This document shows, piece after piece, positions 7,937 through 19,907 of a stretch of 20,102 bases of DNA (positions are counted from its first letter, which is position 1; each line of letters opens with the position of its first letter). Source of the stretch: a virus; IMG/VR virus record IMGVR_UViG_3300025816_000090, positions 1 through 20,102 of that record. One strand, 5' to 3'. A model generated the notes under the pieces. The model had not been told where the DNA came from, made no database searches, and saw only the letters and a program-made list of their open reading frames with translations. The translations under genes were made by a program, and so were the position numbers.

Positions 7937-9280
7937 ATGTCACAAGAAGTATTTGCTAAGGACTCTGAACCTACTCATGTAGAACAGATAGACATCCAGT
8001 CAAACGTAGACCAAAGCAAAATTGCTAGTCTTGTTAATGGTTTTGCTGGAATGACTTATACAGAAAGTATCATGAGTGATACTATTAGAGTCAGAGTTAG
8101 TTTTATTGATAGCGGAGATAGTCTTGAGGACAAAACTGTAACCGAGGCATTGCCTCTAGTCGGTCAAGAGCAGGTCAGATTAAAATTTTCTGATAATAAT
8201 GAAAATACTTTAGAACCAGTTTTATATGTTAATAAAATTACTAATAATGTAGATAGAACACAAGACTCAATGATAACTTTAGATCTAGTATCTAAAGAGT
8301 TTATTATGAATGAAAAGAAAAGAGTTAATCAAAGATTTGACGGCAAAGTTTCTGATCATATTAATAAGTTGCTGACAGACTCAAAGTATCTTGGTACACA
8401 AAAGACCGTTAACATTGAAAAAACTTCAAACTTGTATAATTTTTTTGGTAATAATAAAAAACCTTTTTATACACTGACATGGTTATGTAATAAATCAGTA
8501 TCCGAGGAGAATCAAACTCTTGGTAAGAGTGCTGGATATTTTTTATATGAAACGTCTGAAGGTTTCTTTTTTAAATCTATTGATGGGTTATTGAGTCAAG
8601 AACCAAAACTAAAGTTAATTTATAATGAAACACCCGACTTTAATGGTAATATTCCTGAAGGATATAATCAAAAGATTCTTGACTTTAAGAAAGATAATGA
8701 TACAAACGTACAGAGTAAATTGCAGATGGGTGCTTTCTCAACCAGAACAGTTTTGTTTGATCCCTTTACATGTTACTATGAAGTAAAAGCACCAAACGTA
8801 TCAGAGAAGGGTGTTGAGGACTCTTTGAAGAAAGGTGGTAAAGATTTATATCTCGGAAAGAAATTTAGAAATAAAGAGTTTGACCAGGAAGGAACGAACG
8901 AAGAGTTCTCAAGAACAACTTACTTCTTGCTCGATAAAGGAACTGCTCCTTCTGGAGATCCAGATCAACAACTCTCAAAGTCAGGAGAAGAGAACTTTGA
9001 GTATGGTCAAATTGCAAACCAATCTGTCATGAGGTATAATCAAATGTACTCTGCGAGAGCAAGTATAACGATTGCAGGTAATTTTTCTTTGCACGCTGGC
9101 GATGCGATTTACATAGATTCACCAGGACTTAAAAAAGAAAAGACTTCTGATGTAGATCGCAAAGATGGTGGGCTATATATTATAACGGATATCTGTCATC
9201 AAATTACATCTGAAGGAACATATACTCAATGCAATTTAGCTAGAGACTCCTTCGGAAGAAAACCAAAATCACGTAATTAA
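7937..9280 (+). CDS. Baseplate hub protein, gp27-like
   Basis: A 447-residue, beta-rich protein with no signal peptide or membrane segment. In T4, gp27 forms the trimeric hub that joins the gp5 spike to the tail tube. Supporting features are an N-terminal region on the pattern of hub proteins (SIMSDTIRVRVSFIDSGDSL, then a Q-V-R-L-K-F strand near residues 77-82) and a C-terminal beta domain with SLHAGDAIYIDSPG and a closing GTYTQCNLARDSFG strand. The latter is a common hub/VgrG-like layout. AGAGG at 7923-7927 gives a good ribosome binding site for ATG 7937. The gene directly follows the tape-measure-like genes and precedes the gp5-like gene, with only the CP12-like gene between, which agrees with a hub role. 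The gp27 name is by similarity of layout and context; distant homology could hide another hub subunit. Confidence 0.7.
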   Translation: MSQEVFAKDSEPTHVEQIDIQSNVDQSKIASLVNGFAGMTYTESIMSDTIRVRVSFIDSGDSLEDKTVTEALPLVGQEQVRLKFSDNNENTLEPVLYVNKITNNVDRTQDSMITLDLVSKEFIMNEKKRVNQRFDGKVSDHINKLLTDSKYLGTQKTVNIEKTSNLYNFFGNNKKPFYTLTWLCNKSVSEENQTLGKSAGYFLYETSEGFFFKSIDGLLSQEPKLKLIYNETPDFNGNIPEGYNQKILDFKKDNDTNVQSKLQMGAFSTRTVLFDPFTCYYEVKAPNVSEKGVEDSLKKGGKDLYLGKKFRNKEFDQEGTNEEFSRTTYFLLDKGTAPSGDPDQQLSKSGEENFEYGQIANQSVMRYNQMYSARASITIAGNFSLHAGDAIYIDSPGLKKEKTSDVDRKDGGLYIITDICHQITSEGTYTQCNLARDSFGRKPKSRN

Positions 9281-9284
9281 AAAA

Positions 9285-9512
9285 ATGGAAAGTGTAGAAA
9301 AGCATATTGAAGTAGATAAAAAGATCCTTGAAGATCCAACTACTTCGCCACAACAACGTCGCCACATTGAAGGTGAACTGCAAGAGCTAGAAGTTTATGC
9401 TACTAATCACAAAGCAGAGATTGAAGCAGGAGATCATCATGATCCCACAGCACTAGAACTCTTCTGCGAGATGGAACCTGAAGCAGACGAATGTAGGGTA
9501 TACGAGGACTGA
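9285..9512 (+). CDS. CP12-like protein
   Basis: A 75-residue protein ending ELFCEMEPEADECRVYED. This matches the C-terminal CP12 signature: aromatic-C-x8-C-R-x-Y-x-D, with Glu/Asn-Pro and Ala between the two Cys. CP12 in cyanobacteria binds GAPDH and phosphoribulokinase under oxidising conditions and switches off the Calvin cycle; its C-terminal Cys loop docks on GAPDH. Residues 28-41 (IEGELQELEVYATN) resemble the helical EEL region before it. The N-terminal Cys pair and the AWD element of canonical CP12 are absent. cp12 is a known auxiliary metabolic gene of T4-like cyanophages. Here it starts four bases after the gp27-like stop without a ribosome binding site, and its TGA overlaps the next ATG (TGATG). 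A virion role for a CP12-derived fold is the alternative. Confidence 0.75.
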   Translation: MESVEKHIEVDKKILEDPTTSPQQRRHIEGELQELEVYATNHKAEIEAGDHHDPTALELFCEMEPEADECRVYED

Positions 9513-11356
9513 TGGAAGGAGGAACACTATTTAATCCCGGATTTCTTGGGTCATCTTTCTTATGGTGGGTTGGTCAGATTGCTGACGACTCCACTTGGAG
9601 GGAGAATATTAACTCGGGTAATTATGAGGACAAATATAGTATTCCTGGTTGGGGTAAGAGATATAAAGTAAGAATTATTGGTCTTCATGACCAAGGTGAA
9701 ACTGAGATTCCTTCGGATCAGTTGCCTTGGGCAAACATCATGTATCCTGTCACGGGAGGTGGATTCCAAACAAATAGTGGAGCAACATCACAACTCCGTC
9801 AGGGGAACATGGTGTTTGGTTTTTTCCTTGATGGGCAGGACCAGCAAGTTCCCGTTATCATGGGAGTATTGGGTAACAACTCTCAGACAGAATTATCTCA
9901 GATTATTGGTGATGGTTCTGTAACCAATGCTCAGGCAGGAAGTATTGCGAAAAGTGGATACTCTGTAGGCACTAAGAGTAAAGGTAACGCAAAGGAGATT
10001 ACTCCCGACCAAGATAAAGTAATTAAGCAACCTGCAAGAAGAGGGCAGGGTGGTAGAGCACTTGGAAGCACTACAAATAGAGGTGGAGCAAAGCATCCAT
10101 CCGGTAGTGCAAATTCAACCCCTACTCTTGCTAATAATCCAGATTTAGATAAGTCTTTAGATGCTACTCTTGCTAGAGAGGATGCGGCAGTTCAGGCAGC
10201 ACTGGCTCAAGAAGCAGGACCAGGCGCGAAACCAGCACCAGGTGCGTCTCTTGAAAATGAATCCGTCCATCAAATCACTGCTGGAGATGTAAAAAGATCT
10301 GCTAAGTGTGATGAAAAGATTGTTATGTTGAAACCAGATGAGCAAAACAATCTAATCCAGTCTGCATTGAAAGGCATTCAAACTGTAATAGAAAACCTTA
10401 CCAGTAAAATTGATAAGTATCTTCAGGCAATCCAAAGTTATGTTGATGCTGTCTCTAGCACCATCAATAATTTACAGAAATTAATCAGAGATGCTGCTTG
10501 TGAAATAGCAAAGTATATTAAAATCCTTATGGATAAGGTAATGGAATATGCGATGAAAATACTTAATAAAGGAATGAATGCTGTTGTTGCGGCACTTCCA
10601 TCTTCCCTGAGATATCAATTCTCAGATATGAAGGAGATTCTTACAGAATTATGTATGTGTTTATACAATAAACTGATGGATGGAATGTGTGACCTCATAG
10701 CAGGAGTCTTAAATGATGCTCTGAATCCAGACCAACTTGAAAAAGATGCTAATGACAGAGCATCAAATGGTGTGGATGAAAATGGAAAAAATATTAATGA
10801 TAAAACAAATCCTCAAGTTCCTATTTGTTATTCCGAAGACATTGTAAGTTCTGTTTTTGCCGGTAAAAAATCTGCTATTGATGATGCTAATAATAATCTT
10901 CTTGATAATATGAATGCATACATGGAAGATATCTCTAACATGTTGGCAGGAGTATCAGGTGCCCTTGCTGATATAAAAAATTTGATTCCAGATATTAATG
11001 GTGGTATGGCAGCTGCGATGAATTTTACTAATCTTAGTCTGAATGTTTTTGGGTGCGATTTATCTCCCAGTGTTGCTACATCAGATATATACACATTCTG
11101 TTCTGGTGGTGATGGAACACCTCCAGGACAATTGCCAAGTGAAGCATCTGTTGCAAAGGGAGTTGATAATGCGGCGGAAGGACCTAGAGTTCAACCCACT
11201 CCGTATGTTGAACCCACTAGAGACACACCACCAGTAACTCATCCTAAACCAGTTTCTACTGTGAATCCAGAAACCTCAGAAATTACAAATAGACCCTTGA
11301 CTCAAGCAGAGCAAACGGAGAGACAAGCAGCCATAGATTCTCTTGATATTTCATGA
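9512..11356 (+). CDS. gp5-like baseplate hub protein with N-terminal OB fold, no visible lysozyme domain
   Basis: A 614-residue protein. Residues about 1-135 resemble the gp5 N-terminal OB domain: WWVGQI near the start, YKVRIIGLHDQGETEIPSDQ, LPWANIMYPVT, then QLRQGNMVFGFFLDGQDQQVPVIMGVLG. In T4 the OB domain of gp5 sits under gp27 as the collar of the cell-puncturing spike. After it come a disordered Gly/Ala/Pro-rich stretch (about 155-250) and a long helical region (about 280-405) with Cys-rich short segments (CMCLYNKLMDGMCDL). A Pro/Thr-rich tail ends the protein. No T4 lysozyme-like catalytic signature or beta-helix repeat is visible, so those gp5 functions seem to lie elsewhere. GAGG at 9504-9507 precedes ATG 9512 by only four bases; overlap with the CP12-like stop suggests coupling. 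Confidence 0.75.
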   Translation: MEGGTLFNPGFLGSSFLWWVGQIADDSTWRENINSGNYEDKYSIPGWGKRYKVRIIGLHDQGETEIPSDQLPWANIMYPVTGGGFQTNSGATSQLRQGNMVFGFFLDGQDQQVPVIMGVLGNNSQTELSQIIGDGSVTNAQAGSIAKSGYSVGTKSKGNAKEITPDQDKVIKQPARRGQGGRALGSTTNRGGAKHPSGSANSTPTLANNPDLDKSLDATLAREDAAVQAALAQEAGPGAKPAPGASLENESVHQITAGDVKRSAKCDEKIVMLKPDEQNNLIQSALKGIQTVIENLTSKIDKYLQAIQSYVDAVSSTINNLQKLIRDAACEIAKYIKILMDKVMEYAMKILNKGMNAVVAALPSSLRYQFSDMKEILTELCMCLYNKLMDGMCDLIAGVLNDALNPDQLEKDANDRASNGVDENGKNINDKTNPQVPICYSEDIVSSVFAGKKSAIDDANNNLLDNMNAYMEDISNMLAGVSGALADIKNLIPDINGGMAAAMNFTNLSLNVFGCDLSPSVATSDIYTFCSGGDGTPPGQLPSEASVAKGVDNAAEGPRVQPTPYVEPTRDTPPVTHPKPVSTVNPETSEITNRPLTQAEQTERQAAIDSLDIS

Positions 11357-18357: not shown

Positions 18358-19119
18358 ATGTCATTTAATTTAGACGATGCCAACATAGGCGGACAAGTAA
18401 AATGTGGTACGGGCATCTTCCCTGCCATTGGTGAAGGTGTGACTAGAATCAATGGTTCTGGTGGTTTTGAAGGACCTGTGGTTATTGGAGCTCCAGGATC
18501 ATTCCCAACTCCATATGCCACACTTAATCTTGCACCTTTAGTCAATATTGATTCTCCTCCTCCATTCACCCCTGGTGGATTACCTATGGGACTGAGCAAT
18601 CCATATTCTCTTTGCTGCTCTGCTAATGCTGCTATCATGGGCAACCTTGATGTTAATTTTAATGTGCAGGCAGGACTAATGGTTTCTGGTGCCATTGTTC
18701 GGGATTATAGTGGTAACTATTTGGCAGCAAAGAAAGACTTTGATATCCCACACCCAACCAAAGATGATTGGAGACTACGGCACGTTGCACCAGAGGCACC
18801 AACAGCAGATGTGTATATTAGGGGGAGAGTAACAAACAAAACTGAAATCATCTTCCCTACATATTGGAAAGGATTGGTTGATTGGACAACAATCACAGTC
18901 AATCTAACTCCAATTGGAGCACATCAGAATGTAATTGTAAAGAGAATTGATGAAGAGAAGGTATATCTCCAAGCACATGGAGGTATGCCAATCAATTGCT
19001 TCTATCACATCTATGGGGAGAGACAAGATTGTGAAAGAAATATAGCAGAATACGAAGGAACATCTCCCGAAGATTATCCAGGAGATAATAGTCAATATCT
19101 ACAATCAGGTAAAGTTTAA
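18358..19119 (+). CDS. Virion structural protein, first of a paralogous pair
   Basis: A 253-residue protein starting two bases after the previous stop. The N-terminal 125 residues are Gly/Pro-rich and beta-like (NLDVNFNVQAGLMVSGAIVR). Residues about 127-240 form a conserved domain: DFDIPHP, LRHVAPEAP, YIRGRVTNKTEI, YWKGLVDWTTITVNLTPIG, INCFYHIYGER, then YEGTSPEDYPGDNS. I recall this domain from cyanophage virion proteins of unnamed function, often next to tail-fibre-like segments. The neighbour at 19131 carries the same domain. There is no enzyme signature. A peripheral baseplate or fibre-associated part is the likeliest role, by context only. Confidence 0.6.
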   Translation: MSFNLDDANIGGQVKCGTGIFPAIGEGVTRINGSGGFEGPVVIGAPGSFPTPYATLNLAPLVNIDSPPPFTPGGLPMGLSNPYSLCCSANAAIMGNLDVNFNVQAGLMVSGAIVRDYSGNYLAAKKDFDIPHPTKDDWRLRHVAPEAPTADVYIRGRVTNKTEIIFPTYWKGLVDWTTITVNLTPIGAHQNVIVKRIDEEKVYLQAHGGMPINCFYHIYGERQDCERNIAEYEGTSPEDYPGDNSQYLQSGKV

Positions 19120-19130
19120 GGAAAATTATT

Positions 19131-19907
19131 ATGCCATCAACTAATAGAGAAGGGGCAGCTGCTCCATCAGAAGCAGGCGAACTCATAGACGGTCCAGATA
19201 CACAAGATTGTAGTAAACACCCAGGTGGTTGGGGAGTTCCAATGTCAGATCCTGAGTATATTTGGTATGGAAATAAAAGTGAGGATGATTACCCAAAGGA
19301 AGCATGTTTGCCCTATCATCATATAAATGCACAGATTGATAACTTTCAAATAAACCAAACACTAACTGGTAATATTGCAAATTTTTCTAGTACTGTAACT
19401 GCACCGAATTTTAATGGTCTTGCTTCAAATGCAACAACCGCAAAATCAATTGGTGGTGCATTTGATGCTCCACATTTAACTAAACCAGGAAAAAGAGTTA
19501 GACACTTGATTCCTGAGGGACCAGAGGCAGGAATTTATATTAGAGGAAAATTAAAGGACTCAAATATAATTGAACTACCAGATTATTGGGATGGGCTTGT
19601 TGATCCAGAAAGTATTACCGTAACTTTAACTCAAATTGGATATTCTCAAGACTTGATTGTAGATAAGATTGAATGGGGGAAAATTATTAAAATTAAATCT
19701 GGTCTTGGAGCAAACATTAACTGTTTTTATGAAGTCTGGGCAGAGAGATGGTTAAATCCTCAAGATCATAGTGAAAAACTTCATGTTGTTTATGATGGAG
19801 AGACACCAGATGACTATCCAGGAGACAACAGCAGAATTTTGATAGGTGGTTGGGATTATGACAGGAGAGACCCTCTGACAGGAGAGAGACTTGACAAAGA
19901 TGCCTGA
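19131..19907 (+). CDS. Virion structural protein, second of a paralogous pair
   Basis: A 258-residue protein with ribosome binding site AAGGA at 19118-19122, overlapping the previous stop. The first 60 residues differ from the neighbour and contain several Cys, Pro and Trp. Residues 70-105 (TLTGNIANFSSTVTAPNFNG, then ASNATTAKS) look like a fibre shaft segment. Residues about 112-245 repeat the neighbour's domain: VRHLIPEGPEAGIYIRGK, YWDGLVDPESITVTLTQIG, INCFYEVWAER, then YDGETPDDYPGDNS. A charged tail of about 15 residues follows and overlaps a promoter for the next gene. The function is unknown; duplication followed by divergence of the N-terminus is the simplest history. Confidence 0.65.
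   Translation: MPSTNREGAAAPSEAGELIDGPDTQDCSKHPGGWGVPMSDPEYIWYGNKSEDDYPKEACLPYHHINAQIDNFQINQTLTGNIANFSSTVTAPNFNGLASNATTAKSIGGAFDAPHLTKPGKRVRHLIPEGPEAGIYIRGKLKDSNIIELPDYWDGLVDPESITVTLTQIGYSQDLIVDKIEWGKIIKIKSGLGANINCFYEVWAERWLNPQDHSEKLHVVYDGETPDDYPGDNSRILIGGWDYDRRDPLTGERLDKDA

Follow-up and report, generated by a model that had tools for sequence, protein, structure and literature searches.

A cp12 gene between two tail-hub genes of a T4-like cyanophage, and promoter signals of its relatives at hub and non-hub sites

The tail-hub operon of a virus from the IMG/VR collection (record IMGVR_UViG_3300025816_000090) contains a short reading frame for a protein resembling CP12, an inhibitor of the Calvin cycle. 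This arrangement raises the question of whether the frame encodes a genuine CP12, why it stands among structural genes, and when in infection it would be expressed. The window analyzed comprises positions 1 to 20,102 of that record, 20,102 nt in total; the features under study are compiled in Table 1. The CP12-like character with a C-terminal Cys loop, noted in a first-pass annotation, was borne out by a significant match to the Pfam CP12 family PF02672 (E = 1.1e-10). The score of 42.6 bits was nearly twice the curated cut-off of 22.7 bits, and residues 2–74 of the protein aligned with positions 3–70 of the 70-position profile, covering the whole domain. Among the PHROGs it matched phrog_627 (E = 1.4e-39), a family with no assigned function. 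Cys61 and Cys70, the sole Cys residues of the protein, are spaced C-x8-C (C-x3-P-x4-C) and followed by RVYED, so that the loop CEMEPEADECRVYED holds the CxxxPxxxxC and YxD elements of the CP12 family in full. A profile built from CP12 relatives also matched solved CP12 chains, among them the GAPDH-bound CP12 peptide 3zdf_C (E = 8e-6); we take this as a sequence-level substitute for asking by structure prediction whether the two Cys can form the loop. The Cys pair was retained in all 104 CP12 rows examined, and the tail motif (Y or F allowed, final D) in 102 of them.

Table 1. Positions of cp12 and adjoining features in the window.
Feature	Position	Strand	Basis
gp27-like tail/hub protein, directly upstream of cp12	7937..9280	+	phrog_350 tail protein, E = 2e-95; T4-GC15 of isolates in the same place
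Upstream region without ATAAATA late motif or near-consensus sigma-70 site	9185..9284	+	
cp12, 75 aa, C-terminal-loop-only form; start ATG, stop TGA	9285..9512	+	PF02672 above cut-off; phrog_627; relative in 367 phage records
C-terminal loop CEMEPEADECRVYED (Cys61-Cys70), predicted GAPDH-binding part	9465..9509	+	3zdf_C profile match; dN/dS 0.08
gp5-like baseplate hub/spike protein, directly downstream of cp12	9512..11356	+	phrog_33098 baseplate hub and tail lysozyme; T4 gp5 chains, E = 5e-5

As proposed previously, cp12 is packed tightly between its two neighbors. The TAA stop codon of the gp27-like gene (9278–9280) is followed by only four nucleotides (AAAA) before the cp12 start, and the TGA of cp12 (9510–9512) overlaps the ATG of the gp5-like gene; a GAGG motif lies just 5' of that ATG, within cp12. 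The downstream product was assigned by sequence matches to baseplate hub/tail lysozyme PHROGs and to the OB domain of T4 gp5. The upstream product gave no match to a solved gp27, and the label gp27-like therefore denotes position and isolate annotation. The first-pass annotation had also stressed that cp12 has no ribosome binding site. No Shine–Dalgarno-like motif was indeed found in the 20 nt upstream, but 8 of the 12 main genes of the window have none either when tested in this simple way, so its absence is not distinctive.

Elsewhere in the window, the gp5-like gene is directly followed by a gene for a 2100-amino-acid protein with three PA14 stretches (PF07691; 11395–17697), and two adjacent, apparently paralogous genes (18358–19119 and 19131–19907) each match phrog_17490 and phrog_28536. 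No RNA family reached threshold within the window, and NCBIfam gave no meaningful match. The region 587–1488 contains a candidate programmed −1 ribosomal frameshift joining a gp26-like to a gp51-like product. An in-phase T TTT TTC heptamer (1294–1300) lies 10 nt before the stop codon of the gp26-like gene (587–1306), and a shift to −1 gives access to a gp51-like frame of 61–68 codons. Each of the seven heptamer bases was the same in 80 of 80 related loci, which have 74 distinct 3' ends, while neighboring wobble positions varied, and a stem-loop is predicted a few bases downstream (z = −1.9). Syn33, Vibrio phage K567 and pf16 have a T TTT TTY heptamer at the end of this gene as well, and Sinorhizobium phage phiN3 has one a codon further upstream. 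Since an ATG is found within 30 nt after the gp26-like stop in most loci, re-initiation might also give rise to the gp51-like product; S-CAM4 has no nearby ATG. A literature search conducted largely outside the subscription journals retrieved no paper describing a gp26–gp51 frameshift.

In a phage collection, relatives of the window CP12 with up to 76% identity were found in 367 records, at one place in each; for many of them the annotation reads CP12 or carbon metabolic regulator. In 66 of 80 IMG/VR loci cp12 directly follows the gp27-like gene, and in 55 of these it also directly precedes the gp5-like gene, an arrangement termed wedged here. Four loci in which the script missed cp12 were placed by hand (L026, L030, L059, L080), three of them among the wedged 55. 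In the other 14 loci, one of which (L038) offers too short an upstream stretch for that side to be judged, and in several isolates, cp12 lies away from the hub. Its neighbors there, named from translations and from P-TIM68, were a glutaredoxin and an exonuclease-like gene (L003), a helicase-like gene (L005, L007, L010, L012, L014), or downstream gp25/gp6-like genes (L022, L033). Among isolates, cp12 is wedged in eight of those inspected (S-SCSM1, S-SCSM2R, S-CAM4, S-PRM1, ACG-2014i, Sf-CH1b, S-WAM2, Sf-FS3). In Syn33, S-CAM8, S-SSM2, ACG-2014b, ACG-2014d, S-H38, S-RIM8, P-RSM4 and P-RSM6, cargo (cpeT, tRNA-Val or a 2OG oxygenase, for example) comes after cp12. Other sites are occupied in P-HM2 (talC/psbA region), S-TIM5 (near talC), P-TIM68 (before baseplate wedge genes), P-SSM2 and S-SRM01; some neighbors annotated only as hypothetical in older isolate records were read by position. 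The site is empty in S-PM2, S-CAM1 and Syn1, where the gp27-like stop codon is followed after 19–29 nt by gp5 or by a large gene in its place.

Overall, dN/dS was 0.12, with 0.08 for residues 49–75, and the values were alike for wedged (0.115) and non-hub copies (0.093); judged by these ratios, CP12 is under purifying selection in every context. In a tree of 75 columns, which has few characters and many open forks, the split between the phage CP12s and nine host sequences was fully supported, and the non-hub label changed several times, nine by parsimony and at least three forced by well-supported branches. In comparison with one related locus (L013), the middle of the window cp12 (9310–9434) drops to 60–64% identity within DNA that is otherwise about 98% identical, which looks as if an allele had been exchanged locally by recombination. 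Taken as a whole, the explanation of cp12 as an auxiliary metabolic gene that a T4-like cyanophage carries as cargo at its gp27/gp5 junction, including late transcription, translational coupling and GAPDH inhibition, is in our view well founded and probably correct. Counted in its support were a 2016 study, as cited in PMC10665884, and the high expression of phage cp12 during infection by P-HM2 (PMC5082946).

The timing of expression was addressed through the 100-nt regions upstream of cp12, clustered at 80% identity. Either ATAAATA at 20–40 nt upstream of the ATG or a near-consensus sigma-70 site counted as a promoter signal; for cyanomyoviruses, NATAAATA has been reported as the late promoter (PMC2984593). 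Signals were present in 3 of 33 clusters of wedged copies, in 13 of 14 clusters of hub copies displaced by cargo, and in 5 of 10 non-hub clusters. For wedged versus displaced plus relocated copies (3/33 versus 18/24), Fisher's test gave p = 5e-7, a descriptive value because thresholds were set after part of the data had been seen. The perfect late motif TATAAATA was not found in the window. Read most simply, these upstream sequences suggest that wedged copies are transcribed together with the hub genes and that copies displaced by cargo come with a promoter of their own. Because wedged copies almost never have their own promoter and displaced or relocated ones usually do, the window cp12 is, on this evidence, probably a passenger of a late transcript. 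The proposed tie to late structural expression thus stands as read from sequence: for a wedged copy with no recognizable promoter of its own, late co-expression with the hub genes is the likeliest regime.

The best-surviving rival accepts a functional CP12 and supposes that wedged copies are also transcribed in the early or middle phase, from a promoter within the gp27-like gene or further upstream, which would make timing independent of location. Near-perfect sigma-70 sites precede the hub copies that cargo separates from gp5 in P-RSM4, S-CAM8 and S-SSM2, and the window itself has a weak sigma-70-like match at 9012–9040, although such matches were about as frequent in shuffled sequence. The rival can further draw on P-HM2, in which cp12 is a middle gene (PMC5082946). 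Against it, sigma-70-like sites within 100 nt upstream of wedged copies occurred at chance frequency (1 of 59 against 1.2 expected), nor was the late motif enriched there (1 of 59 against 2.7 expected). We regard this alternative as unlikely. On the other side, a literature search retrieved no expression data for a hub-wedged cp12, the copy measured in P-HM2 being at another site, and a promoter at a greater distance, or of a kind other than those scanned for, might serve wedged copies. The preferred reading can be stated as a rule, which we put forward tentatively and which may well fail: the gp27/gp5 junction would decide CP12 timing, with wedged copies being passengers of the late structural phase and displaced or relocated copies carrying a late or sigma-70 promoter of their own.

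It had also been suggested that the CP12 fold was reused in the virion, as a hub or assembly component whose role accounts for its position between gp27 and gp5. The wedged position in 55 of the 80 IMG/VR loci and in eight inspected isolates would fit such a role. A structural protein of a T4-like hub would be expected always at the hub, whereas cp12 moves between hub and non-hub sites, with proteins 85–89% identical found away from the hub, and the hubs of S-PM2, S-CAM1 and Syn1 are intact with no cp12 at the junction. In addition, conservation is far higher in CP12 than in the hub proteins that would be its contact partners (median identity about 81% where that of gp27 is about 32%, a comparison that favors CP12 because the loci were picked by CP12 similarity to the window), and the host-like GAPDH loop of CP12 is under strong purifying selection. 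The evidence from empty sites and relocation is independent of the way in which loci were chosen. Given the mobility of the gene, the empty hub sites and the contrast in conservation, we reject reuse in the virion as very improbable.

There remained the description of the product as an unusual half-CP12. Canonical CP12 of plants, green algae and many cyanobacteria shares the GAPDH-binding C-terminal loop but additionally has an N-terminal Cys pair and an AWD_VEE core. The window protein has neither: as the first-pass annotation had correctly seen, no Cys occurs before residue 61, and in an alignment with chain E of 6gfo IEGELQEL stands in place of the core. A Cys in the N-terminal half was likewise absent from all 104 CP12 rows. 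Host-type CP12s were collected by a scan of genome contigs of Synechococcus (including WH7803), Prochlorococcus and Cyanobium, and every one aligned has the C-terminal loop and neither N-terminal Cys pair nor AWD_VEE core. They are about 39–51% identical to the window protein, and most do not have the 5-residue insert before DHHDP that is present in most phage copies. Because the sampled hosts lack both features as well, the phage form is, apart from this insert, the host form, which removes the grounds for calling it an unusual half; judged by these hosts, a phage-specific loss of the N-terminal Cys pair is rejected. By its sequence, the window gene is thus a phage-borne CP12 of the marine picocyanobacterial, C-terminal-only form. 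Decay of a host CP12 into a non-functional remnant without its N-terminal half, which the missing Cys pair and AWD_VEE core might suggest, is scarcely credible in view of the same form in the hosts, the full length of the gene, a dN/dS of 0.12 and a C-terminal Cys pair kept in every row.

One Prochlorococcus sequence (AG-402-N21, L101, match 2001–2231) groups with the hosts and yet has the phage-typical insert before DHHDP. Contigs assigned to genomes of Euryarchaeota, Nonlabens, Rhodopirellula and Anaerolineales (L090–L094, L096) carry phage-type CP12s 56–88% identical to that of the window; they probably stem from cyanophages and were grouped with unrelated organisms in binning or assembly.

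Such forms have been described before. C classes of CP12, to one of which the C-terminal-only form would belong, were defined by Stanley (2013), as cited in PMC3906501; reviews place cyanophage CP12s among the forms without canonical features (PMC3906501, PMC9406205), and some catalogued CP12s form the PRK/GAPDH complex even though they have no N-terminal Cys pair (PMC9406205). Since absence of that pair need not prevent complex formation, the protein may bind GAPDH alone, as suggested earlier, but need not; whether the window CP12 recruits PRK is uncertain, given that it, like the host protein, has no AWD_VEE core. To the family, location, selection, mobility and promoter contrast described above, a mechanism would add steps that we infer from motif absence (late timing), spacing (coupling) and the biochemistry of CxxxPxxxxC tails, which bind GAPDH (PMC9406205). 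Late in infection, the hub transcript would carry the wedged cp12, whose translation would be coupled to that of the gp27-like gene. The oxidized Cys61-Cys70 loop would enter the active site of host GAPDH (Gap2); by analogy with characterized CP12s, inhibition of GAPDH by the oxidized window protein is likely. The Calvin cycle would then be restrained, so that NADPH and carbon would be saved for nucleotide synthesis and the pentose phosphate route. The literature search retrieved no biochemical test of a phage CP12.

Gene, family and insertion hot spot between two tail-hub genes are all known and not new: CP12 near gp5 in T4-like cyanophages was published by Sullivan et al. 2010 (PMC3037559), and the gp5-proximal position is visible in isolate annotations. 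The closest relatives are the T4-GC 337 CP12s of Syn33, S-CAM4, S-SCSM1, S-PRM1, ACG-2014i and others, which share the family, the C-terminal loop and the gp27-like/gp5 junction and mostly have the same length of 75 amino acids; with up to 76% identity there is no difference of substance, and the window carries another allele. The P-HM2 protein belongs to the same family, has the same loop and is 63% identical to that of the window. It differs in that its gene adjoins talC, has TTGACA and ATAAATA upstream, encodes no 5-residue insert and was measured as a middle gene.

CP12 of phages has its place in the standard account of host carbon redirection by cyanophages, and the gene-level timing found in the literature comes from P-HM2, where cp12 lies beside talC with promoter-like signals of its own (PMC5082946). 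Because most of the loci examined have cp12 in the hub operon, where wedged copies show no such promoter, this timing may not transfer to them. What the promoter contrast adds to an otherwise ordinary finding is modest and testable. If the junction rule is true, the middle-expression model derived from P-HM2 would fail for cyanomyoviruses with a wedged cp12, and the moment at which the Calvin cycle is inhibited would be an evolvable trait that depends on the insertion site.
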